From Deltaproteobacteria bacterium (lineage in GTDB: Bacteria; Myxococcota_A; Polyangia; Polyangiales; Houyiibacteriaceae): DNA of 47,551 nucleotides. How positions within the stretch are numbered: position 1 is the first letter of the stretch; each line of letters opens with the position of its first letter. A program made the position numbers and the translations under genes. Shown here piece after piece: positions 9,611 through 30,511 of this stretch. Below the pieces are notes generated by a model. The model saw only the letters and a program-made list of their open reading frames with translations. It did no database searches and was not told where the DNA came from. The stretch lies in NCBI GenBank assembly GCA_019313915.1, contig JAFDAJ010000013.1:1-47551 (forward strand). Direction: 5' to 3'.

Positions 9611-10597
9611 TCACGCGTAGAACTGTTTGGTCCAGCGGCGGAACTTCGCGATCGGGCCGTCGCCTGGGATCAATGCCGGGGTGTCCATCGGCACGCGGTG
9701 CTCCCAGATCTCTTTGTCTTGCAGCACATCGGAGATGATGAAGCGGTGGATCAGGCGGATTTGGGCGCGGGTCGCCGCGCGCCACGGAAGGGGCAGTCCA
9801 CGCATCGCTCTGGGCACGAAAGGCGGTGGAAATTCCGAGCTCACGCCGATGCCGAAAGACATATTCTCCTCATCGAGTTGTGTAGCGGTGAGGAGGACGC
9901 GGTAGTGGATGCCGAGCTTGGGCACGCGGAGGTCGGTCACGGACAACCCTAGTCCGTGCACATCGGTATCGAAGATCGACTGGATCTCACTGATCGGAAG
10001 GAACGGATTGCGCCGTGTGAATCCGAATTTCGAGTACATCCGTGGGCCTTCGATTCGCAGCACCGGGTCCTCGAGGTCCGAGTACTTGTGGACGGCGGCA
10101 AAGTGGCCGAAGTCGACCGCGTTCTCGGCGACGTCCTGGACGTGTCCTTTGAGTGTGAGCACCTTCGTGACCGGCTCGGTCCACCCTGTCGTGTCGTACT
10201 CGGGCAACTCCCAGGTTGGTGCGGCGCCGTCGTGACCAGCATGTACGAAGATGCATCCGAGTTGCTCCATGACCGGCCACGATCGCAATGACAGCTTGAC
10301 CTCGGGGTTGCCTGGATACTCCGTTCCGACGCACTTACCGCCGGTGTCGAATCGTAAACCATGAAATGGGCAGCGCACGGCGCCATCGACGACAGTGCCT
10401 CCATAGCCGATGTGCGCTCCCATGTGCGGACAGATCGGGTCGAGGACCGCGACCTTGCCTTGCCGATCACGGAACGCAACGACTTCCTGGCCATTGATCT
10501 CGAAGACTCGGACCGATCCCGCTGGAACGTCGGCAGTGGTTGCGATGCGAAACCAGCCTGACGGCATGGGCAGCCTTGGCTTGAGCTGCTGGCCCAC
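9611..10597 (-). CDS. Rieske non-heme iron oxygenase, KshA / DAF-36 / SdmA-like
   Basis: About 328 residues. An N-terminal Rieske domain binds 2Fe-2S through C56-P-H58 and C76-x2-H79. The catalytic mononuclear iron site follows as ENAVDFGHFAAVHK (D162, H165, H170). The C-terminus, DVLQDKEIWEHR then PIAKFRRWTKQFY, is like that of 3-ketosteroid 9-alpha-hydroxylase oxygenase (KshA) and of cholesterol 7-desaturase; the bacterial C-4 sterol demethylase SdmA belongs to the same broad group. Substrate is not decidable from sequence. GTG at 10597 is preferred, seven bases after GAGG; a TTG at 10603 overlaps the ferredoxin stop. The tight coupling to the ferredoxin makes that protein the likely electron donor. 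Confidence 0.87.
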   Translation of the reverse strand: MGQQLKPRLPMPSGWFRIATTADVPAGSVRVFEINGQEVVAFRDRQGKVAVLDPICPHMGAHIGYGGTVVDGAVRCPFHGLRFDTGGKCVGTEYPGNPEVKLSLRSWPVMEQLGCIFVHAGHDGAAPTWELPEYDTTGWTEPVTKVLTLKGHVQDVAENAVDFGHFAAVHKYSDLEDPVLRIEGPRMYSKFGFTRRNPFLPISEIQSIFDTDVHGLGLSVTDLRVPKLGIHYRVLLTATQLDEENMSFGIGVSSEFPPPFVPRAMRGLPLPWRAATRAQIRLIHRFIISDVLQDKEIWEHRVPMDTPALIPGDGPIAKFRRWTKQFYA

Positions 10598-10599
10598 GC

Positions 10600-10791
10600 T
10601 CAATCCTCGACGGTGATCGCCATGGTTGGGCAGTACTTTTTCGCCTGCAAAACCTTCTCACGAAGCTCTTCTGGAGGCTCCTCCTGGAGCACGGTCAGCT
10701 TGCCATCGTCGTTCAGCTCGAAGACCTCGGGCACCTCGCCCTCGCACTCCCCATGTCCCTGACAAAGATCGAAATCCACTTTGATCCGCAT
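10600..10791 (-). CDS. P450-type ferredoxin (3Fe-4S or 4Fe-4S)
   Basis: 63 residues starting MRIKVDFDLC. Cluster ligands are C10, C16 and C54 followed by Pro; position 13, where a [4Fe-4S] ferredoxin would have Cys, is His, as in the single-cluster [3Fe-4S]-type ferredoxins that sit beside bacterial P450s including mycobacterial CYP51. The acidic body (ELNDDG, EEPPEELRE) suits docking to a P450 or Rieske partner. The start at 10791 has an AGAGG site upstream, so the nine-residue-longer frame is not used. It is the first gene of the minus-strand pair and diverges from the TetR and CYP51 genes. Confidence 0.88.
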   Translation of the reverse strand: MRIKVDFDLCQGHGECEGEVPEVFELNDDGKLTVLQEEPPEELREKVLQAKKYCPTMAITVED

Positions 10792-10906: not shown

Positions 10907-11539
10907 ATGTCCGCAACAATGTCGCAGGCTACGGCAAAGGCGCGCAACGCGAAGACCTCGATGTACCGCTCGCTGATCATCGATGCGGCGGAGCGCCTGT
11001 TCGCCAGCCGGGGTTATGAGGGCACCAAGATCCAGGACATTGCCAGCGAGTCCGGGATCTCTCTCGGGACGCTGTATTCGGTTTTCGATGGCAAGTCCGA
11101 CATCTACGAGGCCGTCCAAGACGAGCGGCTAGGACGGCTGTTTCTCCTCGCTGGCCGCACGATGGCAAGTGATGACAAGGCCGCCGAACGCCTGATGCGG
11201 GGCAACCGTGTGTTCATCCGCTGGTTGACCGAGCATCCCGACTTCCTTCGCATTCACCTCAACAACAGCGGTGCCTGGGCGTCGAATCCGCAAGAGGTTG
11301 GTGAGGGTCTCGTCAACGCTTGGCGACGGGGCATCGACTTGATTGCGCTCGTGATCGATGAGGCCATGCGCGAAGGGGATGCCTTCCAAGGAGATTCGGT
11401 GATCGCTGCGCGCACCATGGTGGCGATCCAGCAGGTTCACATGTCGGCATGGGTTGAGTCGGGGATGCAAAGTGACGCCGACCACCTCGCCGACCGGATT
11501 GAAGAACAACTTCGACGCACGCTATTTAGGAGCAAATGA
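10907..11539 (+). CDS. TetR-family transcriptional regulator (sterol locus, left)
   Basis: 210 residues. The TetR_N helix-turn-helix occupies about residues 18-65 (IIDAAERLFASRGYEGTKIQ, then IASESGISLGTLYSVFDGK). The C-terminal ligand domain contains VFIRWLTEHPDFLRIHLNNSGAW. It closely resembles the second TetR at 24947, which also has the LYSV turn and a similar C-terminal domain, so the two appear to be paralogs. It is the first gene of the plus-strand operon and its stop overlaps the start region of the CYP51-like gene. It probably represses this divergent region and may sense a sterol, but neither point is shown by sequence. Confidence 0.88.
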   Translation: MSATMSQATAKARNAKTSMYRSLIIDAAERLFASRGYEGTKIQDIASESGISLGTLYSVFDGKSDIYEAVQDERLGRLFLLAGRTMASDDKAAERLMRGNRVFIRWLTEHPDFLRIHLNNSGAWASNPQEVGEGLVNAWRRGIDLIALVIDEAMREGDAFQGDSVIAARTMVAIQQVHMSAWVESGMQSDADHLADRIEEQLRRTLFRSK

Positions 11540-12939
11540 TGACGACAGCAGCGAGCATAGGCACGGCGCCCGCAAGGGCCGCCCGCCTCAAGAAACCGCC
11601 CCGGTTGAAAGGCGGCTTCCCACTGATCGGCCACACCATCGACTTTGCGCGAGACCCTGTCGGCCTCTTGCAAAGGGCGTACGACAAGTGCGGCCGTGTC
11701 GCCCAGTTCAAACTGGCTGGCAAGAACGTCACCCTTTTCACCGGGCCCGAGGCGCACGAATCGCTTTTTCGGCTGCCGGACGAGGTGCTGAGCCCGACCG
11801 AAGCTTACAAAATGATGATCCCGGTTTTCGGCAAGGGCGTCGTCTACGACACCACGCCAGAGCGCATGTTCGAACAGCTGCACATGCTGCACCCGGCGCT
11901 CCGCAACAAGCGCATGCGCACCTACACGGAGATCATCGCGGACGAAACCCACAAAATCATCAGCAACTGGGGCGACGAAGGACAGATCGAGGTTTGCGAG
12001 TTCTTCGCCACCTTGACGAGCTTCACCTCGAGTCGCTGTCTACTCGGTGAGGAATTCCGAAACGACATGAGCGAGGAATTCGCGAGGGTATATGAAGACC
12101 TCGAGGCGGGTATCGTTCCGTTGGCGTACATCAATGCGTACCTGCCCATTCCGGCGTTCCGGAAGCGCGACCGCGCGAGAGTGCGCCTTGGAGAAATGGT
12201 GTCGAGCATCATCGAGCGACGACGGCGCAAGGGCATCCACTCGGAGGACTTCACGCAGACCCTCATGGAGTCCAAGTACGCCGATGGGACTTCTCTCACC
12301 GATCACGAGATCGCCGGCATCCTCATCGCGGCGATGTTCGCCGGACACCACACCAGCTCGGTGACCACCGCTTGGTCCCTGCTCGAGCTCCTACGAGCGC
12401 CGGACTACTACGAGAAAGTTTGCAAGGAGATTCGCGAGCGTTTCCCGGAAGACGAGGGCTACAGCTTTCAAGCGATGCGCGACCTCGAGCAGACCGAGTG
12501 GGCCATCAAGGAGGCGCTGCGCATTCACCCGCCCCTCTTCATGCTTTTCCGTGCTGCCATGGAGGATTGCGAGATCTACGGCTACCAGATCAAGAAGGGC
12601 GACTGGGTCTCGGTCTCGCCGATCGTTGCCCATCGTGAAAACGAGGTCTTCGAGAATGCCCTCGAGTATGATCCGGATCGCTACGGGCCTGGGCGCGAGG
12701 AAGACAAGCGTCCCTTCGCGTACGTCTCGTTTGGCGGCGGCCGGCACAAATGCCTCGGCAACGCCTTCGCCATCCTACAGATGAAAACCATCTTCGGCGT
12801 CTTGCTCAACAACTACGACTTCGAGCTCGTAGGAGATCCGATGGATACCGACTTTGGACGGATCGTGCTTGGCCCCAAGCCCCCAATCAACGTTCGCTAC
12901 CGCAAGAGAGGAACAAGCAATGCCCGCGTTTCCGCGTGA
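11539..12939 (+). CDS. Cytochrome P450, CYP51-like (sterol 14-alpha-demethylase)
   Basis: 466 residues with no membrane anchor. CYP51 diagnostic stretches are present: YKMMIPVFGKGVVYD (about 90-104, the B'/C substrate-recognition signature) and FAGHHTSSVTTAW in the I helix (267-279). General P450 features are E325-x2-R328 of the K helix and FGGGRHKCLG (398-407) with heme-ligand C405. CYP51 removes the 14-alpha methyl of lanosterol-type sterols in three oxidations. Two ATGs are adjacent; the second (11539) is chosen because AGGAG is six bases upstream. A ferredoxin divergent from it and a reductase at 25627 could supply electrons. Substrate specificity is inferred from family. Confidence 0.88.
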   Translation: MTTAASIGTAPARAARLKKPPRLKGGFPLIGHTIDFARDPVGLLQRAYDKCGRVAQFKLAGKNVTLFTGPEAHESLFRLPDEVLSPTEAYKMMIPVFGKGVVYDTTPERMFEQLHMLHPALRNKRMRTYTEIIADETHKIISNWGDEGQIEVCEFFATLTSFTSSRCLLGEEFRNDMSEEFARVYEDLEAGIVPLAYINAYLPIPAFRKRDRARVRLGEMVSSIIERRRRKGIHSEDFTQTLMESKYADGTSLTDHEIAGILIAAMFAGHHTSSVTTAWSLLELLRAPDYYEKVCKEIRERFPEDEGYSFQAMRDLEQTEWAIKEALRIHPPLFMLFRAAMEDCEIYGYQIKKGDWVSVSPIVAHRENEVFENALEYDPDRYGPGREEDKRPFAYVSFGGGRHKCLGNAFAILQMKTIFGVLLNNYDFELVGDPMDTDFGRIVLGPKPPINVRYRKRGTSNARVSA

Positions 12940-12991
12940 AGAGTTGGAAGAGATGATGGAGCGGTGGCTCGAAGCCAATCGCAATGCCGAA
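12920..12991 (+). pseudogene. N-terminal fragment of an NTF2-like gene, separated by a frame change
   Basis: A good start (ATG at 12920, AGAGG upstream, overlapping the P450 stop) opens a reading frame MPAFPREELEEMMERWLEAN that looks like the first helix of an NTF2/SnoaL-like protein. After about 24 codons the coding sense moves to another frame (+1 relative), where EEIKEVALG continues the family pattern. The usual strand and loop between helix 1 and that segment are absent. An internal deletion that is not a multiple of three explains this best; a sequencing error alone would not remove residues. Confidence 0.6.
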
Positions 12992-13424
12992 CGAAGAGAT
13001 CAAGGAAGTCGCGCTTGGCTACCATATGGAGGGCTTCGAAGACTGGGCGTATCCGTACGACACGGTACTCATCGACGAGAAGCAGGGCCAAGTGGTTGGG
13101 TTCTGGCGGCAAGTAGCGCCGTTCAAGCGCGCCGATGGGAGCGACTACGAAATCGCTGGGGTCGGCGGTTCGTGGTTCAAGTATGCGGGCGACTTCAAAT
13201 GGAGCTGGCAACGTGATTTCTTCGACTTCGGCAATGCCAAGTCGATATTCATCGAGCTCGCCGGCGGTGGCCATCTGAACCCCACGATTCGCAAGAAGAT
13301 TCATCGCCAAGCCAAGGCGGGAGCCGAGCTCTTGCCGGGTCACGAGACGCTTCGGCCGGAGCCCAGCAAACTCGAGAAGCTGAAGAACCTTCAGGCGATG
13401 GTTCGTATCGCCCTCTTTGGATGA
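12984..13424 (+). CDS. NTF2/SnoaL-like protein, C-terminal part (146 residues)
   Basis: The frame from ATG 12984 encodes a beta-rich domain with many aromatics (EDWAYPYDTVLIDEKQGQVV, FWRQVAPF, GSWFKYAGDFKWSWQRDFFD) typical of the curved sheet of NTF2-like proteins, the fold shared with ketosteroid isomerase and SnoaL cyclases. Its natural N-terminus appears to lie in another frame at 12920. This remnant may be translated from the internal ATG by coupling, but it would lack helix 1 and probably part of the pocket. It sits between the CYP51-like and cycloisomerase-like genes. The family assignment is moderate and no active-site residue can be named. Confidence 0.6.
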   Translation: MPNEEIKEVALGYHMEGFEDWAYPYDTVLIDEKQGQVVGFWRQVAPFKRADGSDYEIAGVGGSWFKYAGDFKWSWQRDFFDFGNAKSIFIELAGGGHLNPTIRKKIHRQAKAGAELLPGHETLRPEPSKLEKLKNLQAMVRIALFG

Positions 13425-13428
13425 GCAC

Positions 13429-14238
13429 ATGACGACCGACGGCGCCCCACGCTGGTTCTCCCAGAACCCCAGCAAAGCGTGGGGCGAGAAGTTCTTCCTA
13501 GCCTACTCGCCGATCTGGATGACCATGATGGGGCTGGTGATGGGTCTCGGCGTCACCGCTCGGGTAGGCGAGTGGGGTTTCCTGGCCATCGGCGTTGCCG
13601 TAGCGCTCCCGTTGGTGGCGGTGCCTGCCCTGATTCGTGACGAGAGGCCGCTCGGCCGGCGTTGGTATCAAGCGTATTGGTTCAAAGCGAACCTGTACGT
13701 CGCGATCTTCAACTTCGCTGCCAACTACTTTGGCACGGAGTACTTCTTCGACATTCTTGGGATGGTCTACGAGTACCCGATGATCGAGCTCACCCTCGAT
13801 GCGACGCTCGTCGGATCGGGCGAGCAGCGCGTCCCGGTCATGATGTATCTGCTCACGCAAGCGTACTTCGTCACCTACCACACGACGGCGATCATCGTGC
13901 TCCGGCGGATCCGAACGTCTCGGATTCCGATTAACAGAATCCTCTGGCCGGTCTTGGTTCTGGTAGTCGCCTACTTCTGGGCCTGGATGGAAACCAAGGC
14001 GATGGCCAACCCGTGGATCGAGAGCCAGTTCTACTATCGAGACGTGGGGCGTATGCTCGCATACGGCTCGCTCTTCTATTCGCTCTACTTCGTCGCGAGC
14101 TTTCCGATCTTCTACCACCTCGACGAAGAGCGGGACGCAAACTGGAGCTTGCCGATCACCGCTGCCGCCGCTTGCACCGCAAGCATGATCATGATGTTCC
14201 TATTGGACTTTGCGGCGGCGATATTCGGGCCAATTTGA
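13429..14238 (+). CDS. Cycloeucalenol cycloisomerase-like membrane protein
   Basis: 269 residues with about seven hydrophobic segments. The pattern follows plant cycloeucalenol cycloisomerase (CPI1) almost along its whole length: NPSKAWGEKFFLAYSPIW, WYQAYWFKANLYVAIFNF then NYFGTEYFFDILGMVYEYP, YHTTAIIVLRRIR, YFWAWMETKAMANPW, and LFYSLYFVASFPIFYHLDE. CPI1 opens the 9-beta,19-cyclopropane ring of cycloeucalenol to give obtusifoliol, a step needed only when sterols derive from cycloartenol. The start is ATG 13429, five bases after the stop of the preceding gene. Adjacent CYP51-like and other sterol genes support the assignment. Activity on a bacterial sterol is an inference. Confidence 0.75.
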   Translation: MTTDGAPRWFSQNPSKAWGEKFFLAYSPIWMTMMGLVMGLGVTARVGEWGFLAIGVAVALPLVAVPALIRDERPLGRRWYQAYWFKANLYVAIFNFAANYFGTEYFFDILGMVYEYPMIELTLDATLVGSGEQRVPVMMYLLTQAYFVTYHTTAIIVLRRIRTSRIPINRILWPVLVLVVAYFWAWMETKAMANPWIESQFYYRDVGRMLAYGSLFYSLYFVASFPIFYHLDEERDANWSLPITAAAACTASMIMMFLLDFAAAIFGPI

Positions 14239-14270: not shown

Positions 14271-15368
14271 ATGAGATCGACGCCCCTGAAAGTATTTCAG
14301 TTCGCCACCGGCAATGTGGGCACCGAGATGGTGCACAAGACGGTCCTGCATCCGGACCTCGAGCTGATCGGCCTGTATTGCTACAGCGAGGACAAGGTTG
14401 GTCGCGATGCGGGTGAAATCGTCGGTATCGGCCCCATTGGCGTCCAGGCAACGAACAGTGTCGAGGACGTCATTGCCGCCAAGCCCGACTGTGTGACGTA
14501 CTTCGGTGTGTGGCCGGACATCGATCTTTTCTGCCGGCTGCTCGAAAGCGGCATCAACGTCGTTACCACGTCGGATTGGATTACCGGCTACTCTCGCAAC
14601 CAGAGCCACCCGCATCCGTCCGGGAGGCCGCTAAGCGAGCTCGTCGATGAAGCTGCAAAGCGTGGCAATGCAACGCTCTATGGCACGGGTATGAATCCGG
14701 GGCTTGCGCAGATCCTAGCGATCGTAAACACCGCAGGCCTGTCGCGCCTCGACCACATTCAAGTGATCGAAACGGTCGACGTTTCCTGCCACCACTCGGT
14801 CGACACCTGGAAAAGACACGGCTACGGGCGGCCTGTGGACGATCCGGAGGTCCCGCGGATGCTGGAGGCGGGTGCCACGGTCTTCGTGGATTCGATTTAC
14901 ATGATCGCGGACTGCTGCGGTATCGAGATCGACGAGATTGCCTTCGAGTGCGAGCTAGGGGCCTGCAAAGAAGAGGTCGACCTCGGATGGTGGGTGCTTC
15001 CAAAAGGGTCTGTTGGCGCGAGCCTAGCGAAGTACATCGGCAAGGCGAAAGGCGAGCCCAAGATCGAGGTTCACTTGGAGTGGCAAATGACTCCGAACAC
15101 CGAGCCGAAGTGGAACGTGCAGAACTGCTACATCATGACAATCCGGGGCAATCCGCAGATCATGAACCGTCACATGATCCTCCCAGCAATGGACTCGGGA
15201 CAAATGGACTGGAGCGACCCGGCGTACATGGCCTCAATCGGCATGACGATCACGGGCATGCCCGCGCTCAACGCCGTCGCGTCGGTTTGTGCAGCGCGTC
15301 CCGGCCTCATTACCAGCGCCGATTTGCCGCTACGTGCGTTCGCCGGCCGCTTTCACGATAACCGCTGA
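14271..15368 (+). CDS. NAD(P)-dependent dehydrogenase, dihydrodipicolinate-reductase-like
   Basis: 365 residues. The N-terminal Rossmann motif is FATGNVGTEMV. GTGMNPGLAQILAIV and a conserved central domain follow, as in the family of dihydrodipicolinate reductase-like proteins that includes 2,4-diaminopentanoate dehydrogenase. Proteins of this type often occur in actinobacterial and proteobacterial lipid or steroid clusters without a proven substrate. The start ATG at 14271 has GGAG eight bases upstream; an out-of-frame ATG at 14266 ends at once. An 8-bp unit (aatcacta) is repeated almost three times just before the ribosome site (14238-14257). Confidence 0.75.
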   Translation: MRSTPLKVFQFATGNVGTEMVHKTVLHPDLELIGLYCYSEDKVGRDAGEIVGIGPIGVQATNSVEDVIAAKPDCVTYFGVWPDIDLFCRLLESGINVVTTSDWITGYSRNQSHPHPSGRPLSELVDEAAKRGNATLYGTGMNPGLAQILAIVNTAGLSRLDHIQVIETVDVSCHHSVDTWKRHGYGRPVDDPEVPRMLEAGATVFVDSIYMIADCCGIEIDEIAFECELGACKEEVDLGWWVLPKGSVGASLAKYIGKAKGEPKIEVHLEWQMTPNTEPKWNVQNCYIMTIRGNPQIMNRHMILPAMDSGQMDWSDPAYMASIGMTITGMPALNAVASVCAARPGLITSADLPLRAFAGRFHDNR

Positions 15369-15413: not shown

Positions 15414-16658
15414 TTGACCAAGACACTCGAAATCCATGGAACCTACGAGCCGCGATTCGAACCGGTTGCGAAGCTCATGCGCAAGCAGATCAAGCACTAC
15501 GGCGGTGGTGCGGCGGCGGCGGTGTTCTTGGACGGCAAACCCGTCGTCGATGTTTGGGCCGGGCCGGCGCGCAAGGACGGCACGCCCTGGCAGCAGGACA
15601 CCATGTCGATTTGCTATTCGGGGACCAAAGGGATCACCTCGACCGCGCTGCACATGCTCGCCACCGATGGTCTGATCGACTACGAAGCCCCCGTTGCCGA
15701 GTACTGGCCGGAGTTCGGCTGCAACGGCAAAGAACAGATCACGGTTCGGCATTTGCTGTCTCACCAGGCCGGCCTTCACAAGGTTGTGCACCTCATCGAC
15801 GAGCTCACCGACATTCTGGACTGGGATCTGATCGTTTCACGCCTTGCCAAGACCGAGCCGGATTTCCACCCGGGCACGGCCAACGCCTATCAGGCAATGA
15901 CCTTTGGTTGGCTCGTTGGGGAGCTGATCCGGCGGGTTTCGGGCCTGGCTGTGCCCGAGTTCATCGAGCAGCGGATCGCCGGTCCTTTGAAGCTCGACGG
16001 CTTGTACATCGGCAACGCCCACACGCAGATGCATCGCCTTCCGGATTGCATAGGGCTCCCCGAGCTCCAAAGAAGCGGTGCCAAGCCCCTGACGACCGAC
16101 AATCGCGTCCCATTCTGGGTGCGCCCTGCGCAGATGCGAGATCTGTGGCGCCGAGGCTTGTCGCCGCGAAATGCCAAGGAGCTTTTCTCGCACCCCGCGT
16201 TCTGGGAGGCGAGCTTGCCGGCGATGAACGGCGTCGCGACCGCGCGTTCGCTTGCCAAGATGTACGCGGCGCTTTCGTTGGGTGGCGAGCTCGACGGGGT
16301 GCGGCTCGTCTCGGAGGAGATCGTCCGAAAGTCCGCCGAGGTCCAAACGAAGCGGGCCGACAAAGTCATCTTCTATCCGCTTCATTGGAAGCTCGGATAC
16401 CATCGCACGGACGCATTCCTGATGGATGTGCCTGAAGCCTTCGGGCATTTCGGCCTGGGTGGCGCCGGAGGATGGGCCAACCCGGAGCTGAAGCTCTCGT
16501 TTGCTTTCCTCCACAGTGGCTTCCCGTTCTCGATCATCGGCCAGACCCGCACGGTCATGATGACCGCGGCGGTCTACGAGTCCCTGGGAATCTACAAAGG
16601 CACCTGCCACACCTTGCGCCACGGACCGATCGTCGATTTGGTGCCGAAGCGCGCTTAA
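15414..16658 (+). CDS. Serine hydrolase of the beta-lactamase / EstB esterase family
   Basis: 414 residues with a class-C-beta-lactamase-like fold. The nucleophile motif S-x2-K is CYSGTKG (S69, K72). Tyr159 in NAYQAMTFGWLVGE fits the second catalytic position, and GLGGAGGWANPE near the C-terminus takes the place of the KTG loop. There is no signal peptide, so a cytoplasmic esterase or lipid hydrolase is more likely than a beta-lactamase. The only suitable start is TTG at 15414; its ribosome site is weak. It is in line with the upstream dehydrogenase and the FAD oxidoreductase. A possible role is hydrolysis of sterol or acyl esters, which is an inference from location. Confidence 0.8.
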   Translation: MTKTLEIHGTYEPRFEPVAKLMRKQIKHYGGGAAAAVFLDGKPVVDVWAGPARKDGTPWQQDTMSICYSGTKGITSTALHMLATDGLIDYEAPVAEYWPEFGCNGKEQITVRHLLSHQAGLHKVVHLIDELTDILDWDLIVSRLAKTEPDFHPGTANAYQAMTFGWLVGELIRRVSGLAVPEFIEQRIAGPLKLDGLYIGNAHTQMHRLPDCIGLPELQRSGAKPLTTDNRVPFWVRPAQMRDLWRRGLSPRNAKELFSHPAFWEASLPAMNGVATARSLAKMYAALSLGGELDGVRLVSEEIVRKSAEVQTKRADKVIFYPLHWKLGYHRTDAFLMDVPEAFGHFGLGGAGGWANPELKLSFAFLHSGFPFSIIGQTRTVMMTAAVYESLGIYKGTCHTLRHGPIVDLVPKRA

Positions 16659-16681
16659 CGAACGGTTCATTGGAGATAGAA

Positions 16682-18058
16682 ATGACGGAGAAGATAGGCA
16701 TCGTTGGAGGTGGCATTGCCGGCGTCGGGGCGGCCTGGTCGTTGCACCGCGCAGGGTATGAAGTCGAGCTCTTCGAAAAGGGTCCGGCTCTCGGCGGAAA
16801 CGCGAAGACGTTTCGTTGGACGGTCGACGATGGCCACGCGGAGTCCCCACTGCTCGTCGTCGCGTGGCCGCAGATGTACTACCACAACTACGAGTTGTTG
16901 TTGGACGAGGTCGGTGTCGGTATCGAGACGCTGCCCATCTCCTACTTCGTGCAAACGCCCGAAGGGCATTTCTGTCAGGACGGCCAGACGGCGGTGCAAA
17001 AGCGCTTTGCACCGGAGCTCAGGCGCTGGCGGAAGCTGGTGGCGTTCATCACGAAGGTCAACGACTTCTTCCTACCCAAGAAGAAGCACGATTCGCTCTA
17101 CCACTTCTCGTATTTCAATCCGATGAATCTCATTCCGCTCTATTGGATGGCGAGGCTCTTCGGTATTTCGAGCGAGTTCTGGGACACGATCTTCGTTCCA
17201 ATTCACTGCGCGACGTTCATCACGACCTCGATGCGCGGCGTGCCAGCGGTCATCTTGCCCCTGCTCGAAAGCATCGTGCCGCTCGAGGAGCCCACGCAGA
17301 TGGGAACGTGGCGAGGCGCGCCCCGCCAGGTTTTCGATCGAATGACCGAGCCGTTTGCCGACAAGGTGCACACCGACCACGAGATCACCACCGTCAGGCG
17401 TCGTAATGGCCGTTTCACGATCGGAGACGCAAAGGGGCGCACCTACGAAGTCGATAGGGTGGTGTTTGCTTGCGATGCGACGGCGGTGTTGAACGCGCTC
17501 GAGTCTCCGAGCTGGCTGCAGCGGCTCCTTCTTAGCAATGCGGAGTACGTTGACGACGTCGACCCGTCGTTCTCGAGGTTCGTGATTCACTCCGACACGA
17601 GCATCTTTCCCGAGAAGCACCGGCAGAGAATTCTCTCCGACTTCAACACGTACTCCGAGATCGACGAAGCGGGCGCGCTCGAGTGCACGTTCGTCATTTC
17701 CGCGCAGAACCCGAGCACCAAGGATGAAGGCGTGCCCATGTTGGTCACTTTCAATTCGAAGAAGGCGATCGACAAGGTGCAGAAACGAATCGACCTACCT
17801 CATCCGACGCACACGATGTCCCTCCGAAACATGATCATCATGTCGATGATACGCTTCCTGCAGGGCAAAGACGGCATCCACTATTGTGGCACGTTCACGA
17901 CGCCCGAGGGCGGCCATGACTTGTCGTTCATGTCCGGCCTCGTTGCGGCACACGCGATCGGCGCCCCGTATCCATTTTCGCAGGACAACTCCGATGCCGT
18001 CGCAGACTTCAAGCAGATGCAGAAGATGATGCTGACATCACGAGCTCGGGCGACCTAG
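16682..18058 (+). CDS. FAD/NAD(P)-binding oxidoreductase, amine-oxidase / COG2907-like
   Basis: 458 residues. The N-terminal dinucleotide fold GIVGGGIAGVGAAW is followed by the EKGPALGGNAKT flavin motif. The closing FAD segment is IHYCGTFTTPEGGHDLSFMSGLVAAHAIG. The overall plan matches COG2907-type proteins (related to amine oxidases and phytoene desaturases). An Asn/Gly-rich substrate region could not be matched to a known reaction. ATG 16682 has GGAG upstream. The gene ends four bases into the convergent EXPERA-like gene. In this setting a sterol desaturase, reductase or isomerase role is possible but unproven. Confidence 0.78.
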   Translation: MTEKIGIVGGGIAGVGAAWSLHRAGYEVELFEKGPALGGNAKTFRWTVDDGHAESPLLVVAWPQMYYHNYELLLDEVGVGIETLPISYFVQTPEGHFCQDGQTAVQKRFAPELRRWRKLVAFITKVNDFFLPKKKHDSLYHFSYFNPMNLIPLYWMARLFGISSEFWDTIFVPIHCATFITTSMRGVPAVILPLLESIVPLEEPTQMGTWRGAPRQVFDRMTEPFADKVHTDHEITTVRRRNGRFTIGDAKGRTYEVDRVVFACDATAVLNALESPSWLQRLLLSNAEYVDDVDPSFSRFVIHSDTSIFPEKHRQRILSDFNTYSEIDEAGALECTFVISAQNPSTKDEGVPMLVTFNSKKAIDKVQKRIDLPHPTHTMSLRNMIIMSMIRFLQGKDGIHYCGTFTTPEGGHDLSFMSGLVAAHAIGAPYPFSQDNSDAVADFKQMQKMMLTSRARAT

Positions 18059-18756
18059 AGGAAGAGGCTGTACGACCCGTCGAGGATCAACCGGACGCTC
18101 GTGCTCAGCCCCCAGATCGGGAAGATGAACCACATCAAGTTGGTGATGCCGACGAACAGCAGCAAGTCTCTGAGCGAGTGCCCTTTGTGGCGGCCGTTGT
18201 TGAAGAACTGGAAGAAGTAGACGGCCGTGCCGTAGAACATCTGCCAGAAAATGATGACGCCGATGATTCCGAGGACGCGGGCGGGCATGAGATCAAGCGT
18301 CATCCCAAATGCGAACAGCGTTGCAGGGATGAGCGTCGTGAAGCCGTTCCCAACATCGATGTTGTAGCCGTACGAGCGTCGGTCTGAATACCCGGGATCG
18401 AACAACGAGTAGCTCGACCAGATGGTCGTCCATTGAGAGAACGAGAGCACGCGGAACAAAGGAATAGGCCGCGCGAAGACCTCGGCGATGCGCGTCATCT
18501 CGCGTCCCCGGTAGGGTTCCTTGATCGCTTCGTACTCGGAGCGAATCTGGTCCTGGCAGACAAAGAGCGCGATCTCCCACCAGGCGATCATCACGTTGAT
18601 CACCAAGAAGAATGCCAAGCCGACTTGCGTCGCGTTGTAGACGCCGTGAACGCGCTGGTGCAGCCAGGTGTGAAAGAGAGTGCCGATGACGACGACGATA
18701 CCGATGACCGCCGCCGTTGGGATCGTGAGGCCTTTCGGCTGCGTGGTGGATTCCAT
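18055..18756 (-). CDS. Putative EXPERA / emopamil-binding-like membrane protein
   Basis: 233 residues with six or so hydrophobic segments. Two regions resemble the EXPERA domain of sterol delta8-delta7 isomerases: SSYSLFDPGYSDRRSYGYN with an acidic/aromatic pattern before a helix, and NLMWFIFPIWGLSTSVRLI near the end, matching the N-x2-W-x3-P feature. The match is weak by eye, so a plain membrane protein remains possible. The start is ATG at 18756 with GGAG seven bases upstream, and the TTG one codon earlier is not needed. The gene lies between the FAD oxidoreductase and the HsaC-like gene, on the opposite strand. Confidence 0.5.
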   Translation of the reverse strand: MESTTQPKGLTIPTAAVIGIVVVIGTLFHTWLHQRVHGVYNATQVGLAFFLVINVMIAWWEIALFVCQDQIRSEYEAIKEPYRGREMTRIAEVFARPIPLFRVLSFSQWTTIWSSYSLFDPGYSDRRSYGYNIDVGNGFTTLIPATLFAFGMTLDLMPARVLGIIGVIIFWQMFYGTAVYFFQFFNNGRHKGHSLRDLLLFVGITNLMWFIFPIWGLSTSVRLILDGSYSLFL

Positions 18757-18815
18757 CAACTTTCTCCGTAGCCAGATGCGGCCTCCGTACTATGATCTGC
18801 TCCGAGGCGAAGCAA

Positions 18816-19736
18816 ATGATCGCGGTGAAGCAGTTGGGGTACTTGGTCTTCGAGGTGAGCGACCTTGCGGCATGGGAGGATTTCGGGACCAAGATTCTCG
18901 GCCTTCAACTGGTCGATCAGCGTGGCGACACCGGTTTTTCCCTGCGAATGGACGGTTACCACCAGCGCTTCTTCATCGAGCGGGGGCCTGCGGACGACCT
19001 TGTGGCGCTCGGCTGGGAGGTCGAGGGCCCCGCTGAGCTCGAAGAGTTCGTAGGGCGCTTCGAGGACGCCGGGCACAGCGTCACACAGGGTACCGCAGAC
19101 GAAGCGGCACGGCGGAACGTCGAGGCTCTCATCCGTGTGAACGACCCGGCGGGAAATCCAAACGAGATTTTCTACGGGCCCAAGGAGGCCACAGAGCCGT
19201 TCGTCTCGGAGGTCGTCCGCTCGGGCTTCGTGGCTGGCGAGCAGGGGTTCGGGCACGTGGTGGTCGCCGCGAACGATCAAGAGGAGCACGAAGCGTTCTA
19301 CGCGACGATGTTCGGGCTCGAGCTCAGCGACTACATCCGTTGTGAGTACTTTGGACACGAGATCGACGTCACCTTCATGCATGCCAACGCGCGGCATCAC
19401 TCACTCGCTTTCGGAGGCGGGCAGCTCAAGCGCATTCACCACTTCATGGTCCAGGCAAAGTCCATCGACGAGGTCGGGATGTGCTACGACCGCTTCCTGT
19501 TTTCGGGCGGCATGGTTCACCAGACGCTTGGGCGGCATCCGAACGACAAGATGCTTTCGTTCTATGGGTACACGCCTTCCGGCTTCCACTTCGAGTTTGG
19601 CTCTGGCGCCATCGAAATCGGTCAGGGTTGGGAGAGCACGACCCATGGCAAAGTCAGCGAGTGGGGGCATCACCCGCCGCAGCTCCTCACCAAGGCATAC
19701 CGCCGCGCCAAGGAATCGCGCGACAAAAAGGGCTGA
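18816..19736 (+). CDS. Type I extradiol dioxygenase, HsaC/BphC-like
   Basis: 306 residues with two VOC modules. The Fe(II) triad of the C-terminal module is visible: H147 in QGFGHVVVAAND, His at 194/195 in ARHHSLAF and E260 in FHFEFGSG, spaced as in BphC and HsaC. These enzymes open a catechol ring beside the hydroxyls; HsaC acts on 3,4-DHSA in cholesterol degradation. ATG 18816 (MIAVKQLGY) is preferred to 18792 because GAGG lies eight bases upstream and the family begins close to this residue. The next gene is an HsaD-like hydrolase, the normal following step. Confidence 0.87.
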   Translation: MIAVKQLGYLVFEVSDLAAWEDFGTKILGLQLVDQRGDTGFSLRMDGYHQRFFIERGPADDLVALGWEVEGPAELEEFVGRFEDAGHSVTQGTADEAARRNVEALIRVNDPAGNPNEIFYGPKEATEPFVSEVVRSGFVAGEQGFGHVVVAANDQEEHEAFYATMFGLELSDYIRCEYFGHEIDVTFMHANARHHSLAFGGGQLKRIHHFMVQAKSIDEVGMCYDRFLFSGGMVHQTLGRHPNDKMLSFYGYTPSGFHFEFGSGAIEIGQGWESTTHGKVSEWGHHPPQLLTKAYRRAKESRDKKG

Positions 19737-19797: not shown

Positions 19798-20634
19798 ATG
19801 GTCGTAGAAGCAGTCCCCGAAGGAGAATACGCCGATGTCGGCAACGGCATCACGATGCACTACCACGAGGCCGGTAGCGGTGATCGCGGGGTCATCCTGT
19901 TCGTGCACGGGAGCGGACCGGGGGCGAGCGGCTGGAGCAACTTCAAAGGGAACTACCCGTTCCTCGCGGAGCATGGCTACCGGACGATCGTGCCTGACAC
20001 GATGGGCTACGGGTATTCGACCAAGCCCGAAGAAGGAGCGTTCAGTCTCGACGACGTTGCCGCGCAATACAAGGCGCTGCTCGACACGCTCGCTGTGGAT
20101 CGGGCGATCGTGGTGGGGAACTCACAGGGTGGGGCGATCGCGATCACGATGGCGCTCAACTACCCGGACCTCGTCGACAAGCTCGTCCTGATGGCCCCCG
20201 GTGGTCTCGAGGCGCGCGAGACGTACATGCAGATGGAGGGCATCAAAGCGATGATTCGCGTGCTCTACAAAGAGGGCATCAGCAAAGAAACGATGCGAAA
20301 GGTCTTCACGCTCCAGCTGCAGGACGAATCGAAGATCACCGACGAAGTCATCGAAGAGCGCTACCAGGTCGCGATGACGCAGCACAAGGACAACATCGCT
20401 CGCATCCAAGTTACAAACCTGGAAGAGCGGCTATCGGAGATTCAGTGTCCAGTGCTCTGCTTCTGGGGCGCCAACGACAAGTTCTGCCCCTCGACCGGCG
20501 CATCCAAAATCGCAACCAGTTGCCCCAACTCCCGCACCATGCTCATCGCCAACTGCGGCCACTGGGTCATGGTCGAGTACCAAGAGCTCTTCAACAACCT
20601 AACCCTAAGCTTCCTCGACAACGAACTAGGCTAG
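19798..20634 (+). CDS. Meta-cleavage product hydrolase, HsaD/BphD-like
   Basis: 278-residue alpha/beta hydrolase. The HGSGPGASGWSNF oxyanion loop is characteristic of C-C bond hydrolases of meta-cleavage pathways. The catalytic triad is S109 in VVGNSQGG, D227 in WGANDKF and H255 in NCGHWVMVE. BphD and HsaD hydrolyse the ring-opened product of BphC/HsaC. It follows the dioxygenase by 61 bases in the same direction, so both should act in sequence. Length matches the family (about 285). Confidence 0.85.
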   Translation: MVVEAVPEGEYADVGNGITMHYHEAGSGDRGVILFVHGSGPGASGWSNFKGNYPFLAEHGYRTIVPDTMGYGYSTKPEEGAFSLDDVAAQYKALLDTLAVDRAIVVGNSQGGAIAITMALNYPDLVDKLVLMAPGGLEARETYMQMEGIKAMIRVLYKEGISKETMRKVFTLQLQDESKITDEVIEERYQVAMTQHKDNIARIQVTNLEERLSEIQCPVLCFWGANDKFCPSTGASKIATSCPNSRTMLIANCGHWVMVEYQELFNNLTLSFLDNELG

Positions 20635-20670: not shown

Positions 20671-21684
20671 CTATTTGTTGGCGACGGCCTTTTCGACGGC
20701 TTCTAGGAGGCTTTTGCTGTAGACACGGCCGGTGAGCTTCTCCCGCGTCTTTGTAGCGACGGCGTCCCACTCGGCCTTGTAGGGCGATGTGTCGACCTCG
20801 ATCATGCCGCGCTTGACGAGAGACGCGTAGGCTCGAGCGTCGTCACGGCGCGCCATCGTGTCGCCGGCACGTGCCGCTCGTTCGCTGGTGTCGATCAGAA
20901 CCTTCTGGTCATGCTCGGTGAGCTCGTCGAATTTCTCTTGTTTGATGAGTGACCCGCCGATGAGGATGCCGAAGTTCTCTTTCGCCATGTAGTTGAGACG
21001 CGTGTACCACTGGAGCGCGACGGCAGCGAGGGCGGAAGCAGGCACGGTGTCGAGCATGCGCGTTTGCAGGCCACCATACACCTCGGGCACGCCCATCCGA
21101 ACGGGGTTGGCGCCGATCGTGGTGATGTATCCGGCGAACACCGGGTCGTCTTTCCATGCCCACGGGCGGAGCCTCTTCAGATCGTCGGGTTTGGCAAACT
21201 CGTCCATGGAGAATATGCGGTTCTTCCCAGCCTCACCCCAGGCCAACAGCATGAAGCCGTTGTCTTTGAACAGCTTCGCAAAGCGGTCCCCGAGCTGCGT
21301 GCGCGCGCGTTCGAGTTGGTCGTACTCGGTGATCAACCCCGGCGCGGTCAGCACCAACACGGGTCGAGCTACGATTCCAAGTCCGGTGGTGGTCACGCCC
21401 GCCGCATCCATTTGCCCAGCGCGCACCTTGCGAATGAAATCGCGCTCGTCACCCTGACTGCCGCCGGAATAGAAGCGAAGCTCCACACGGTTCTCGGTCT
21501 CTTTCTTCAGGCTCCGGTTCCAAGCCTTCATGAGCTTCATGAAGCCGGAGCCCGAAGGCGCCAGAGACGCGAAACGGATGATGATAGGGGATGCAGCGTT
21601 GGCTTGCGGCGTCGACACCGCGCCGGGTAGCAGGAGCGCACTCGCGGCGAGGAGTGCGACAAACACGTGTTTCATTCTGTTCAT
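20671..21684 (-). CDS. TRAP transporter substrate-binding protein (DctP family)
   Basis: 337 residues. A signal peptide (KHVFVALLAASALLLPGAVSTPQANA) is followed by a DctP/TAXI-like fold: PIIIRFASLAPSGSGFMKLMKAW, a conserved ELRFYSGGSQGDERDFIRKVRAGQMDAAGV block, and the closing helix KSLLEAVEKAVANK. It should capture an organic acid in the periplasm for a DctQ/DctM membrane pair, but neither is encoded in the window. Position beside the GMC and ALDH genes on the same strand suggests a shared promoter. A role in taking up an acidic steroid or another carboxylate is possible. Confidence 0.82.
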   Translation of the reverse strand: MNRMKHVFVALLAASALLLPGAVSTPQANAASPIIIRFASLAPSGSGFMKLMKAWNRSLKKETENRVELRFYSGGSQGDERDFIRKVRAGQMDAAGVTTTGLGIVARPVLVLTAPGLITEYDQLERARTQLGDRFAKLFKDNGFMLLAWGEAGKNRIFSMDEFAKPDDLKRLRPWAWKDDPVFAGYITTIGANPVRMGVPEVYGGLQTRMLDTVPASALAAVALQWYTRLNYMAKENFGILIGGSLIKQEKFDELTEHDQKVLIDTSERAARAGDTMARRDDARAYASLVKRGMIEVDTSPYKAEWDAVATKTREKLTGRVYSKSLLEAVEKAVANK

Positions 21685-21737: not shown

Positions 21738-23321
21738 TCACGCGCTTCGGATGAGCTTTGCCGCGCGGTAGCCGATCAGCATGCTGGGCGCATTGAGCGC
21801 CGAGACCGGAGTCCAGGGGATCGCAGAGGCGTCGGCGACGCGCAGACCGCTCACGCCCCGGAGGCGAAGCTGAGCGTCTACAGGGTCTGTCTCGCTCGTC
21901 CCCATCCGGCAACTGCCAGCGAAGTGATAGGTCGTGATCGTGTTCTTCCGGACGTAATTCGCGATGGCCGCGTCACTGTTGACGTGCTTGCCGGGCATGA
22001 GCTCCTTGGCGCCCCATCCCGCGAGGCCACTCGCGCCGCCAATTGCACGGGCGATTCGAACGCCTCTAACCATCGTGTCCATATCTTGCGAATCCGAGTA
22101 ATAGGCCGGGTCGATCAAGGCTTGAACCGACACGTCGGTCGACTGCAGTCGCAGCGTGCCTCGGCTCTTTGGCTTTCCCAGGATCAAAATGATGCCGAAC
22201 ATGTGATCGGTGAACTGTTGAACGGCGCCGATCTTGAACGCTGCCCCGATCATGCCGCGCACCATTTGCCGGGACCGCGGCCCGTAGAACGCGTGCGGGA
22301 CGACCATCGGCGGGAGCATCCGTTGCACCATCTGCCGCATTGCCGAGGGGGCGGGCCAGTACACGTAGCAAGTGTCGCTTTGCGACGCGGGAAGGTCGCT
22401 GCCCTCGTTCGTTCGGAAGAAGCTGTAGAGCTGTGGGTAGAAGCAGTCGATATCCTTCTTGGCCTTGAAGAACACTGGCACGTTTGGATGGTCGTGAAGC
22501 CCGTTCCCGATCGCGGGCCGGTCGGTGACGACGGGGATGTCGAACGTGCGGAGGTGCTCACTCGGGCCGACGCCCGAAAGCATCAGAAGCTTGGGTGTTT
22601 CGAGCGCACCGGCGCATAAGATGATCTCTTTGGCGGAAGCAGCTCGCTTGAGGGCGCCGTCATGTTCGAACTCCACCGCTCTGGCGCGCTTCTCCGGGGT
22701 GAACATGACACGGTGGGCGCGCGCGCCGGTGAGCACCGTGAGGTTTGCTCGCTCGCCCGCGTCTTTGACGAACGCCACGTATGAGCTTCGCCGGTCCTCG
22801 CCTTCGTACGACATCCATTCGTAGCCGATGACGTTGCTCATGTTGCCGTCGTTCAGATCTTCTTTGCGGTTGAAGCCAAGCTCTTGTGCCGAGGCGATGC
22901 ACGCTTCAGTCCACTTGGTCGCCGGGCGTCGATGGGGCCGCAACCTCTTCTCGATCGCCTTGAAGTCTTCCTGGACGTCGTTCCAGTGCCAGCCTTGCGG
23001 CCACTCCGCATAGTCCTCTCGCGAGCCACGCGTGTAGACCATGCCGTTCACCGAACCGCTGCCTCCCATCACCGTGCCGGTGCCCGCGAAGATCCGGTGC
23101 TTGGCGGAGTGTACTTGCGGAATGGAGAAGCGCTCCCCCATCACGGCGTCGTTGATGAATGCCTCTTTGTAGCCCTCGGCGATCAAGGTCTCTGGATGCT
23201 CTTCGGCAGCCGGCCCGCTTTCGAGGAGGAGCACGCTGTTGCTCGGATCATTCGCCAGCTCCGCGGCCACGATGCATCCAGCCGAGCCCCCGCCGACCAC
23301 GATGTAGTCGTATTCGTTCAT
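21738..23321 (-). CDS. GMC-family FAD alcohol oxidoreductase
   Basis: 527 residues starting MNEYDYIVVGGGSAGC, with the ATG overlapping the ALDH stop by one base. GMC features in order: FAD motif GGGSAG, the GGSGSVNGMVYTRG signature, GALETPKLLMLSGVGP, and the C-terminal catalytic region TYHFAGSCRMG with the His followed by PVSALNAPSMLIGYRAA. GMC enzymes oxidise primary or secondary alcohols (choline, glucose, cholesterol, polyethylene glycol). Paired with an aldehyde dehydrogenase it could convert an alcohol to an acid. The longer open frame (to 23360) is not needed. Confidence 0.88.
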   Translation of the reverse strand: MNEYDYIVVGGGSAGCIVAAELANDPSNSVLLLESGPAAEEHPETLIAEGYKEAFINDAVMGERFSIPQVHSAKHRIFAGTGTVMGGSGSVNGMVYTRGSREDYAEWPQGWHWNDVQEDFKAIEKRLRPHRRPATKWTEACIASAQELGFNRKEDLNDGNMSNVIGYEWMSYEGEDRRSSYVAFVKDAGERANLTVLTGARAHRVMFTPEKRARAVEFEHDGALKRAASAKEIILCAGALETPKLLMLSGVGPSEHLRTFDIPVVTDRPAIGNGLHDHPNVPVFFKAKKDIDCFYPQLYSFFRTNEGSDLPASQSDTCYVYWPAPSAMRQMVQRMLPPMVVPHAFYGPRSRQMVRGMIGAAFKIGAVQQFTDHMFGIILILGKPKSRGTLRLQSTDVSVQALIDPAYYSDSQDMDTMVRGVRIARAIGGASGLAGWGAKELMPGKHVNSDAAIANYVRKNTITTYHFAGSCRMGTSETDPVDAQLRLRGVSGLRVADASAIPWTPVSALNAPSMLIGYRAAKLIRSA

Positions 23322-24934
23322 CACGATTTTCGGGTGAACAGTTTCAAGAAGCCCCGCCATCGTTGCGCGAGGCCCCTCCCGTAGATGAGCTCGATCACGC
23401 CGCTGAAGACGCCATAGTCCTTCTCGGCCACCGGGAAGACACGGCTGGGCTGGTGGATTGGCAAACGGTCGTCAACCACGGCTTTGATGTTGCACATCGA
23501 GCGCAGGCCCTCGCGCCCATTCATGCGCCCGTAGCCCGATGCCTTGACGCCACCGAAGGTCAAGTCTTGTGCCATGTACGTGACGCCGCCGAACTCGTTG
23601 ATCGAGCTCATGCCGGCTTCGAGCTCCGTGGCGATCTTCCGGGCGCGCGCGCGGCTCTTGGAGAAGACCGACGACGACAGACCATAGGAGACACCGTTCG
23701 CAACCTTCACGGCGTCCGCGTCGTCACGCACTCGGATGAGCAGCATCACCGGCCCGAAGACCTCTTCCTGTGCGATGTCCATATGGGGCGTGACGTCGGC
23801 CAAGATGGTGGGCTCGAAGTAGTCGCCTTTGTCGCCGAGCGTTCGCTTGCCGCCGGTGACGACTCGTGCGCCTTGCTCCACTGCGCCGTTGACTGCCTTC
23901 TCGATGATGTCGATCTGGAGCGGGGTGACGATCGCGCCGACATCGACGACTCTCTCGCGGCTACTGCCCTGACGAAACTCACGAACCAATTCGGAAGCGC
24001 GCTTCTCGAAGGCGTCGTAGATGGCGTCGTAGACGAGGATTCGCTCTGAAGCGACGCAGTTTTGCCCGCAATTGATGTAGCAACCGGCGAGCGAGGAATG
24101 AACCGCCTGTTCCAAGTCTGCGTCGTCACACACGATGAACGCGTCTTTGCCGCCGAGCTCCATGACCACCGGTATCACTCGCTCGGCACTGGCTTCGACC
24201 ACGCGCCGCCCGTTGTTGACGGAGCCGATGAAAAGAATCGTATCCACCGCCGAGCGCGCAAGTGCCGCACCGGTCGGTCCGTATCCCTGCACGGCTTGGA
24301 TGAGGTCTGGGTTGTGTCCGGCTTCTTCGACGACCTCACGGAGCGCGTCGATGAACTTCGCGCTCGACCATGCAACCCACTCAGACGGCTTGAGTACGAT
24401 CGCGTTGCCCGACATCAGCGCGGGGATCAACGGATTGACGATGTTCTGAAACGGATAGTTCCAAGGAATGATCGCAGCCAGGACACCGAGCGGGTGATAC
24501 TCGAGATGCGCCTTCTTGTGCACCAACAAGCCGGAAGACACTCGCTCCGGGCGAAGGTGCTTCTCCCCATTGTTGATCGTCCATCGAAACTTCTCGCAGG
24601 TCGGCCAAATCTCCCCCATCAGTGCGTTCTCACGCGTCTTGCCCGAGTCCCGCTGCACTGCGAGACAGATCTCGTCCTTGTTCTCGACCGTGTATGCGAG
24701 CAGCTGGCGCAACACCTTGCGGCGCTCCTCGAACGAGGTCTTGCGCCAGGCCTGCTGGGCGACCTTCGCGCGAGCGACTGCGGCATCGACATCCTCGGGA
24801 GAGTCGATGCGCACCTCACCCAAGGGTTCCCGTGTTGCAGGGTCGACGCAGGGGATATGCGTGGCTTGCTCGGCAGGCTCGGAGTGCTGCTCTAGCGAAA
24901 TCGGAATTGACATTCTGATTTTAGCCTCTATCAT
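23321..24934 (-). CDS. NAD(P)-dependent aldehyde dehydrogenase
   Basis: 537 residues of the ALDH superfamily. The catalytic Cys is C293 in CGQNCVASERI and the general base is E259 in VMELGGKDAF. PWNYPFQN and the SMGSVNN-like FIGSVNNGRRV loop match the coenzyme site. A second ATG at 24913 (MSIPISLEQ) is an equally good start, with GAGG eleven bases upstream. The C-terminal tail after the catalytic domain (IELIYGRGLAQRWRGFLKLF) is moderately hydrophobic, as in membrane-associated fatty aldehyde dehydrogenases. It is translated together with the GMC oxidoreductase. It diverges from the second TetR across very few bases. Confidence 0.88.
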   Translation of the reverse strand: MIEAKIRMSIPISLEQHSEPAEQATHIPCVDPATREPLGEVRIDSPEDVDAAVARAKVAQQAWRKTSFEERRKVLRQLLAYTVENKDEICLAVQRDSGKTRENALMGEIWPTCEKFRWTINNGEKHLRPERVSSGLLVHKKAHLEYHPLGVLAAIIPWNYPFQNIVNPLIPALMSGNAIVLKPSEWVAWSSAKFIDALREVVEEAGHNPDLIQAVQGYGPTGAALARSAVDTILFIGSVNNGRRVVEASAERVIPVVMELGGKDAFIVCDDADLEQAVHSSLAGCYINCGQNCVASERILVYDAIYDAFEKRASELVREFRQGSSRERVVDVGAIVTPLQIDIIEKAVNGAVEQGARVVTGGKRTLGDKGDYFEPTILADVTPHMDIAQEEVFGPVMLLIRVRDDADAVKVANGVSYGLSSSVFSKSRARARKIATELEAGMSSINEFGGVTYMAQDLTFGGVKASGYGRMNGREGLRSMCNIKAVVDDRLPIHQPSRVFPVAEKDYGVFSGVIELIYGRGLAQRWRGFLKLFTRKS

Positions 24935-30066: not shown

Positions 30067-30511
30067 GTTGTTGACCCTGTCCATCGGGCTCGGGCTCGCA
30101 GCCAGCCTTCTTTATGGCGAGCTCTTCGGGTTGGCCGCTGGAGGCATGGTCGTCCCAGGCTACGTCGCCCTTTTCGCCAACAAGCCGGTCGACATTGGGC
30201 TCACGCTGCTTGCCGCGCTCGTGACCTTCGGTTTTCTGAAGGGGCTTTCGCAAATCGCTATCGTGTACGGCCGCCGGCGAACCGCGCTCACGATCCTCGT
30301 CGGTTACATCGTTGGGCTGGCCTTCCGGATGTGGTTGGACAGCCCAATCACGCCGTTTGCCGAAGGGGCGATCATCGGCTTCATCATCCCGGGGCTCATT
30401 GCGATCTGGTATCAGCGCCAAGGCGTGCTCGAGACGACGCTCAGCCTCATCACGGCGGCGATTCTCGTTCGCATGGTCTTGGTCGTGTTCATCGGAGACG
30501 TAGCGATATGA
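30053..30511 (+). CDS. pgsC: Poly-gamma-glutamate synthase subunit PgsC/CapC
   Basis: 152-residue membrane protein with five hydrophobic helices. The signature GELFGLAAGGMVVPGYVAL near the N-terminus and IIGFIIPGLIAIWYQRQG are typical of PgsC, which with PgsB forms the catalytic synthase. Length matches the family (about 150). It begins inside the end of pgsB and its stop overlaps the pgsW start. Confidence 0.92.
   Translation: MPEIELLTLSIGLGLAASLLYGELFGLAAGGMVVPGYVALFANKPVDIGLTLLAALVTFGFLKGLSQIAIVYGRRRTALTILVGYIVGLAFRMWLDSPITPFAEGAIIGFIIPGLIAIWYQRQGVLETTLSLITAAILVRMVLVVFIGDVAI

Follow-up and report, generated by a model that had tools for sequence, protein, structure and literature searches.

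A 47,551-nt stretch of DNA from an uncultured Polyangiales bacterium (the window) carries a homolog of plant cycloeucalenol cycloisomerase (CPI) in one operon with CYP51, and the same neighbourhood recurs in Pseudomonadales. On balance, we think it likely that this CPI opens the cyclosterol ring to give a Δ8 sterol, as part of a module that readies exogenous 4,4,14-trimethyl-9,19-cyclosterols for steroid catabolism. The observations behind this reading are the homology itself, the operon structure, the synteny across phyla, the absence of a cyclase and the presence of steroid-degradation genes.

A CPI homolog in a bacterial genome

The open reading frame lies on the + strand, with an ATG at 13429 and a stop codon ending at 14238, and encodes 269 aa; an alternative TTG start is possible at 13417. 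The protein is 77–89% identical to its counterparts in congeners, with a dN/dS of about 0.08–0.12 against six of them, and it is a genuine coding sequence under purifying selection. For Arabidopsis CPI1 (At5g50375) we used a reconstructed reference sequence, not one drawn from a database record. BLASTP aligned it to the window protein at 34% identity over 274 aa (E 1e-52), confirming for this exact reading frame an earlier sequence-only reading that the gene follows the plant CPI1 pattern. The homology runs end to end, at a length of 269 aa compared with about 270–280 aa for the family. The reconstructed plant sequence was closer to proteins retrieved afterwards, those of the Myxococcota genome G070 (38%) and of L066 (36%), than to the window CPI, so that the similarity does not stem from any influence of the window on the reference. 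An alignment of five bacterial CPI proteins with the reconstructed sequence contained 46 invariant columns, and the plant-like motif NPSKxWGExFFLxYxPxW is present in the window protein.

The structure model (pLDDT 85.8, pTM 0.88) predicts a polytopic membrane protein with seven long helices. Searches of Pfam-A, NCBIfam and PDB sequences returned no match, and no CPI family model among them. Comparison of the model with PDB folds gave no significant match: the best Foldseek E was 0.21, and the best VIA-align Z was 4.4, a value that means only a common arrangement and that leaves room for, but does not support, a link to the EBP/EXPERA or another sterol isomerase fold. BLASTP, tree and predicted structure place this bacterial protein in the CPI family, and its most likely action is to protonate the 9β,19-cyclopropane of cyclosterols and so open it, as plant CPI1 does. 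With the reconstructed plant CPI1, the bacterial clade shares end-to-end homology at 34–38% identity, a similar length and CYP51 as pathway partner, whereas it differs in sitting in an operon, in genomes without a cycloartenol synthase, and in that its ring opening is a predicted activity.

To our knowledge, no genes have been assigned to cyclopropane ring opening in bacteria, and of the described routes known to us, none with assigned genes takes 9,19-cyclosterols as its starting point. The literature searched, which did not extend to automatic annotations in public databases, yielded no report of a bacterial CPI; a text match to ‘CPI1’ (PMC1821046) turned out to be a Frankia strain name and not the enzyme.

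CYP51 and a broken 8,14-sterol reductase gene in the same operon

Upstream of CPI on the + strand lies a gene for a sterol 14α-demethylase of 467 aa without a fused ferredoxin (11536–12939), assigned from Pfam p450, its position in the tree and PDB, where all top matches were CYP51s (best 6mcw, ‘Cytochrome P450 51’, E 2e-136; M. tuberculosis CYP51, about 1e-113). Heme and I-helix motifs (FGGGRHKCLG and AGHHTS) are found in the translation, which by sequence is that of a real CYP51. At the B-prime site, considered and set aside as a guide to mono- versus dimethyl substrates, the window has M. Upstream of CYP51 is a TetR-type regulator (10907–11539, + strand), recognised as an ORF with a motif seen by eye and conserved in congeners. 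Within the genus, two CYP51 types occupy the CPI locus, one in the window, L036 and L037, the other in L033, L034, L035, L039, L043 and L044. The second type has the CYP51 of the biosynthesis clusters described below as its closest relative and, where readable, carries the altered motif VAYGAEP in place of VVYDTTP.

The two genes had been described as neighbours in one operon. The shared operon holds, but strict adjacency does not, for between them lies a broken gene for the NTF2-like bacterial 8,14-sterol reductase (8,14-Bsr; 12920–13424, + strand). Aligned to the intact copy in the congener L036 and to L037, it shows a 101-bp deletion by which the Y37/Y43 stretch is lost and the reading frame displaced, leaving an ORF at 12984–13424. 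At the same place, L036 has an intact NTF2-like 8,14-Bsr of 200 aa, the same length as the homolog at the Pseudomonadales locus L063. The six residues examined in the study of 8,14-Bsr (Lee et al. 2026, PMC13277303), namely Y37, Y43, Y78, Y80, D133 and D136, all occur at identical numbers in these intact L063 and L036 homologs, as compared by residue number. The gene is also interrupted in L037, and the breaks there and in the window may be assembly errors. No Bsr was found between CYP51 and CPI in L033, L034, L039 or L043.

A CYP51/8,14-Bsr pair is known from Methylococcaceae, Mycobacteriales and uncultured Myxococcota (Lee et al. 2026, PMC13277303), in a paper whose text makes no mention of a cycloisomerase. 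As in that pair, CYP51 adjoins an NTF2-like protein which, in the intact homologs here, has the six probed residues. What differs is the addition of CPI and, in many genomes, of a set of genes resembling those for C4 demethylation, together with the break in the window Bsr. Furthermore, the Pseudomonadales CYP51 is fused to a ferredoxin, as in Methylococcus, whereas that of the window is not.

Candidate C4-demethylation and ring-cleavage genes around CPI

Pfam/NCBIfam profile searches identified three + strand genes downstream of CPI: a DapB/diaminopentanoate-dehydrogenase-like oxidoreductase (14271–15368), a LipL-like esterase/beta-lactamase (15414–16658), which could free sterol esters, and an FAD amine-oxidase/desaturase-like oxidoreductase of uncertain start (16529–18058). 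They are followed on the − strand by a conserved multi-helix membrane protein without a family match (18055–18759). This protein is strongly conserved, always adjoins HsaC in the genus and is possibly another sterol enzyme or a transporter; its structure model (pLDDT 54) was too poor for use. Next come, on the + strand, an HsaC/BphC-like extradiol dioxygenase (18792–19736; TIGR03213 299 bits and HsaC 220 bits, both below cut-off) and an HsaD-like meta-cleavage hydrolase (19798–20634; NF045632 194 bits, below cut-off but the best family), and on the − strand, by profile search, the TRAP transporter substrate-binding protein DctP (20671–21684).

Candidates for C4 demethylation lie farther along. 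On the − strand, a GMC oxidoreductase (21738–23360), found also beside CYP51/CPI in Pseudomonadales and in the sterol cluster L032, is proposed to convert 4-hydroxymethyl to 4-formyl, and an aldehyde dehydrogenase (ALDH; 23321–24934), assigned by profile and from the Pseudomonadales modules and congeners, to convert 4-formyl to 4-carboxy. On the + strand, an FA_hydroxylase-superfamily protein (26819–27493; superfamily of ERG25/SMO, with a 32–35% identical homolog in the Pseudomonadales modules) is a candidate C4-methyl oxidase, and a 3β-HSD/NSDHL-like protein (27497–28516; homologs of 52–60% in the Pseudomonadales modules) is a candidate decarboxylating sterol-4-carboxylate 3-dehydrogenase. 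The best PDB match of the latter was NSDHL (6jkg, E 1e-38; next match 1e-18); NCBIfam places OleD first, with a score below cut-off. Between ALDH and the FA_hydroxylase are a second TetR-type regulator (24947–25630, + strand; motif seen by eye) and an FNR-type reductase with a 2Fe-2S ferredoxin domain (25627–26790, + strand; profile search), a candidate electron donor. On the other side of the operon, a Rieske oxygenase with a KshA-type C-terminal domain (9611–10603, − strand) is kept in the congeners L037 and L039. The gene order from CYP51 to ALDH is largely preserved across congeners. The sterol module is followed immediately, at 28870–31788, by genes of the poly-gamma-glutamate synthesis type (PgsB and a system protein).

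Like ERG25/ERG26 (NSDHL) and the bacterial SdmA/SdmB, the locus thus combines an FA_hydroxylase-superfamily oxidase with an NSDHL-like, putatively decarboxylating dehydrogenase. It differs in the GMC enzyme and ALDH that sit alongside, and its Rieske protein matches SdmA weakly. The earlier point that the linkage of CPI and CYP51 repeats the step order of the plant pathway stands, with the putative NSDHL-like C4 decarboxylase, the FA_hydroxylase and the 8,14-Bsr remnant as additions.

Conserved linkage in two phyla

Of the 19 genomes of the genus, whose contigs are titled Myxococcales bacterium SG8_38 and similar, 17 contain CPI (one of them in fragments). Sampling across the phylum showed it in 40 of 379 genomes (22 of 236 genera), and sampling across the order of a Pseudomonadales relative in 32 of 391. 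At 18 of 20 Pseudomonadales loci, a CYP51 lay within about 3 kb of CPI, these proteins being about 42–48% identical to the window CYP51, and 8,14-Bsr usually sits between the two genes. The arrangement CYP51–Bsr–CPI was seen in L063 and in most of L173–L186, Bsr–CPI in the Myxococcota genome G070, and the complete GMC–ALDH–FA_hydroxylase–NSDHL-like set at nine Pseudomonadales CPI loci as well as in the window. A distant branch of CPI adjoins CYP51 too (L069, L072, L075 and L077). As the search for CPI genes was made without reference to CYP51, this linkage is no selection effect.

No CPI relative was detected on the viral contigs searched. An archaeal match (L067, a Bathyarchaeota record), comprising 57 aa at a contig end and 88% identical to the window, is most likely contamination of the archaeal bin and was set aside. 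One Pseudomonadales genome (G058; L192 and L063) has two CPI–CYP51–Bsr loci of different subtypes. In the single-contig genome G014 (L038), CPI is shortened at the N-terminus, with no CYP51 within the 20 kb read, and this may be a decaying locus.

Sterol synthesis and steroid-degradation genes

Plant-style biosynthesis, tacit in the sequence-only reading, is not borne out by the genome to which the window belongs. Pfam profiles detected neither a squalene epoxidase nor an oxidosqualene cyclase in this genome (448 contigs, estimated to be 100% complete), and a protein search likewise gave no cyclase; the genome contains HsaA/HsaC/HsaD-type genes, and some congener cyclases carry V453. Similarly, no cyclase was found in any of the 30 CPI-bearing Pseudomonadales genomes, in seven f32 genomes or in G070; as a positive control, the same cyclase query matched cyclases elsewhere at 28–52% identity. 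The missing endogenous source of cyclosterols speaks against biosynthesis, not against CPI activity.

An HsaA–HsaE–HsaG–HsaF operon is located on contig C446 of the same genome, and for its HsaA the HsaA model was the best family (407 bits against a cut-off of 450). The genome resembles those with the 9,10-seco route (HsaA–G) in having HsaA-, HsaC-, HsaD-, HsaE-, HsaF- and HsaG-like genes, and differs in that HsaA, HsaC and HsaD score below the curated equivalog cut-offs. HsaA–G are also present in the Pseudomonadales genome G478. According to the account given in PMC13277303 (its refs 66 and 67), a Mycobacterium converts cycloartenol, 24-methylenecycloartanol and lanosterol to C19 steroids, that from lanosterol having an 8(14) double bond.

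Since the sterol-making genes are absent, the module probably serves to eat algal or plant sterols. In this species and in the gammaproteobacteria, CPI would probably act on sterols from outside, in the catabolism of cycloartenol-type sterols and not in biosynthesis. Flanked by TetR regulators, the module is probably inducible. Its input would be exogenous cycloeucalenol- or cycloartenol-type sterols of algae or plants. The FA_hydroxylase would oxidise a C4 methyl, the GMC enzyme and ALDH would carry it on to the acid, and the NSDHL-like enzyme would decarboxylate it. CPI would open the cyclopropane by protonation, CYP51 would remove the 14-methyl, and 8,14-Bsr, whose gene is broken in this assembly, would reduce and shift double bonds. 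The output would be ordinary desmethyl sterols, and Hsa-type enzymes would cleave the rings as the last stage. We infer the chemistry of each step, the substrate and the order, taking the steps from family membership.

Alternative functions and history

A different activity, which we regard as unlikely, is that of a sterol double-bond isomerase that works on a non-cyclopropane substrate (e.g. Δ8 to Δ7 or Δ8(14)) among lanosterol-type sterols, with cyclopropane opening having arisen in the plant branch. Among bacterial cyclases, valine at residue 453 accompanied lanosterol as the product, and isoleucine cycloartenol (PMC4919349; its Table 3, which gives cycloartenol for two Nannocystaceae termed lanosterol producers in the text, was left out of account). 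Every one of the 18 cyclase motifs that could be read in CPI-bearing class and phylum mates shows V453, many Myxococcota pair CPI-family genes with such lanosterol-type cyclases, and the only clear cycloartenol-type cyclase found is L089 (Y/H/I). These counts favour a double-bond isomerase, as does the family's greater diversity in bacteria than in the single plant sequence. Three cyclase-bearing CPI genomes (G378, G404 and G407) have no HsaA, and the presence of CPI in genomes with V453 cyclases and without HsaA suggests that CPI-family proteins may serve as a different kind of isomerase in such organisms. Beside lanosterol-type cyclases, CPI may act on an outside cyclosterol or on a cyclase side product, or may carry out another isomerisation. 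The statement that ring opening is only needed for cycloartenol-derived sterols is reasonable in plants but may not hold for the bacterial family, members of which also sit beside these cyclases. Against a double-bond isomerase in the window, however, its CPI branch groups with the plant sequence and not with the most distant bacterial family, and no lanosterol is made by its genome, which lacks a cyclase. In addition, 8,14-Bsr already performs double-bond adjustment in intact operons, and a separate EBP homolog has been reported in Nannocystis (PMC10152446).

Slightly less probable again is that the module remodels imported sterols for membranes and does not supply carbon. Loss of the C4 and C14 methyls together with opening of the ring would yield a membrane-type sterol, and G070, which has Bsr–CPI and CYP51, gave no match to HsaA or HsaC. 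This is countered by the HsaC and HsaD homologs in the locus, by the HsaA operon found both in this genome and among the Pseudomonadales carriers, and by the TetR regulators, which suggest induction.

That the locus serves de novo sterol biosynthesis, with CPI acting on endogenous cycloartenol, appears improbable, even though five of the 19 genus members have a cyclase. One of their clusters (L029, G012:C21) comprises the mevalonate pathway, FPPS, squalene synthase, squalene epoxidase, a 662 aa cyclase and CYP51, and L030 (G010:C161) has a sterol C24-methyltransferase beside sterol-biosynthesis genes. Such clusters (L029, L030 and L031, G002:C45) are patchy in a genus that otherwise carries steroid-degradation genes. 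Outside the genus, Polyangiaceae OFTM3 (G066) joins the Y/H/I cyclase L089 with CYP51 followed by a distant CPI homolog (L075), which makes this bacterium a candidate for processing cycloartenol as plants do. Biosynthesis at the window locus is opposed by the missing cyclase and epoxidase of its own genome, by the lack of a cyclase in most near-complete congeners, and by the position of the CPI locus, which in the genus is separate from the biosynthesis cluster and holds ring-cleavage genes. In the genus cyclases (L029:9955-11943 and congeners), positions 449, 453 and 381 hold H, V and G, respectively. Their V453 would predict lanosterol, not cycloartenol; taken together, the three residues match the plain set of neither product. 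A cycloartenol synthase as the reason for CPI in the genus was rejected in view of the V at 453 and the G at 381 in these cyclases and of the missing cyclase in the own genome.

Recent transfer from a plant or alga into the genus, to which the plant-like motif could point, is very improbable, as the window CPI is nested among bacterial proteins of Pseudomonadales, f32 and two other Myxococcota lineages, G070 and G378 (support 99/98, 100/97 and 98/92).

The phylogeny proposed earlier to see whether the gene roots with plants or with bacteria places it inside a bacterial clade; the plant sequence joins at the base of the window CPI group, between two bacterial sets. This tree contains one plant sequence, the reconstructed CPI1, and any transfer between bacteria and plants may have gone in either direction. 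The window CYP51 groups with Polyangia CYP51s (100/99), several of which neighbour CPI of the distant type. Because the CPI and CYP51 trees disagree, the pair was either assembled more than once or CPI was exchanged in place; under either history, the two functions are kept together.

Implications for CYP51 and the CPI family

The neighbourhood is a conserved module, shared across phyla by bacteria that apparently make no sterols, which makes the observation more interesting than first stated. CYP51 in bacteria that do not make sterols, with M. tuberculosis as the famous case, has had no clear purpose so far, and plant and algal matter commonly contains cycloartenol-type sterols. We see an even chance that Pseudomonadales and Myxococcota have in common an undescribed catabolic module that dismantles these plant and algal sterols and that would give CYP51 such a purpose. 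As the extra methyls and the cyclopropane set cycloartenol-type sterols apart from those of known pathways, the genes of the module could account for the way these compounds turn over in sediments and water. The diversity of bacterial CPIs, and their placement to either side of the plant sequence, bear on the origin of the plant enzyme; as part of the same evenly balanced reading, plant CPI may derive from the more diverse bacterial family. If true, CYP51 in steroid degraders without a cyclase would have a concrete, testable role, namely preparing triterpenoid sterol precursors of algae, plants or animals for degradation.
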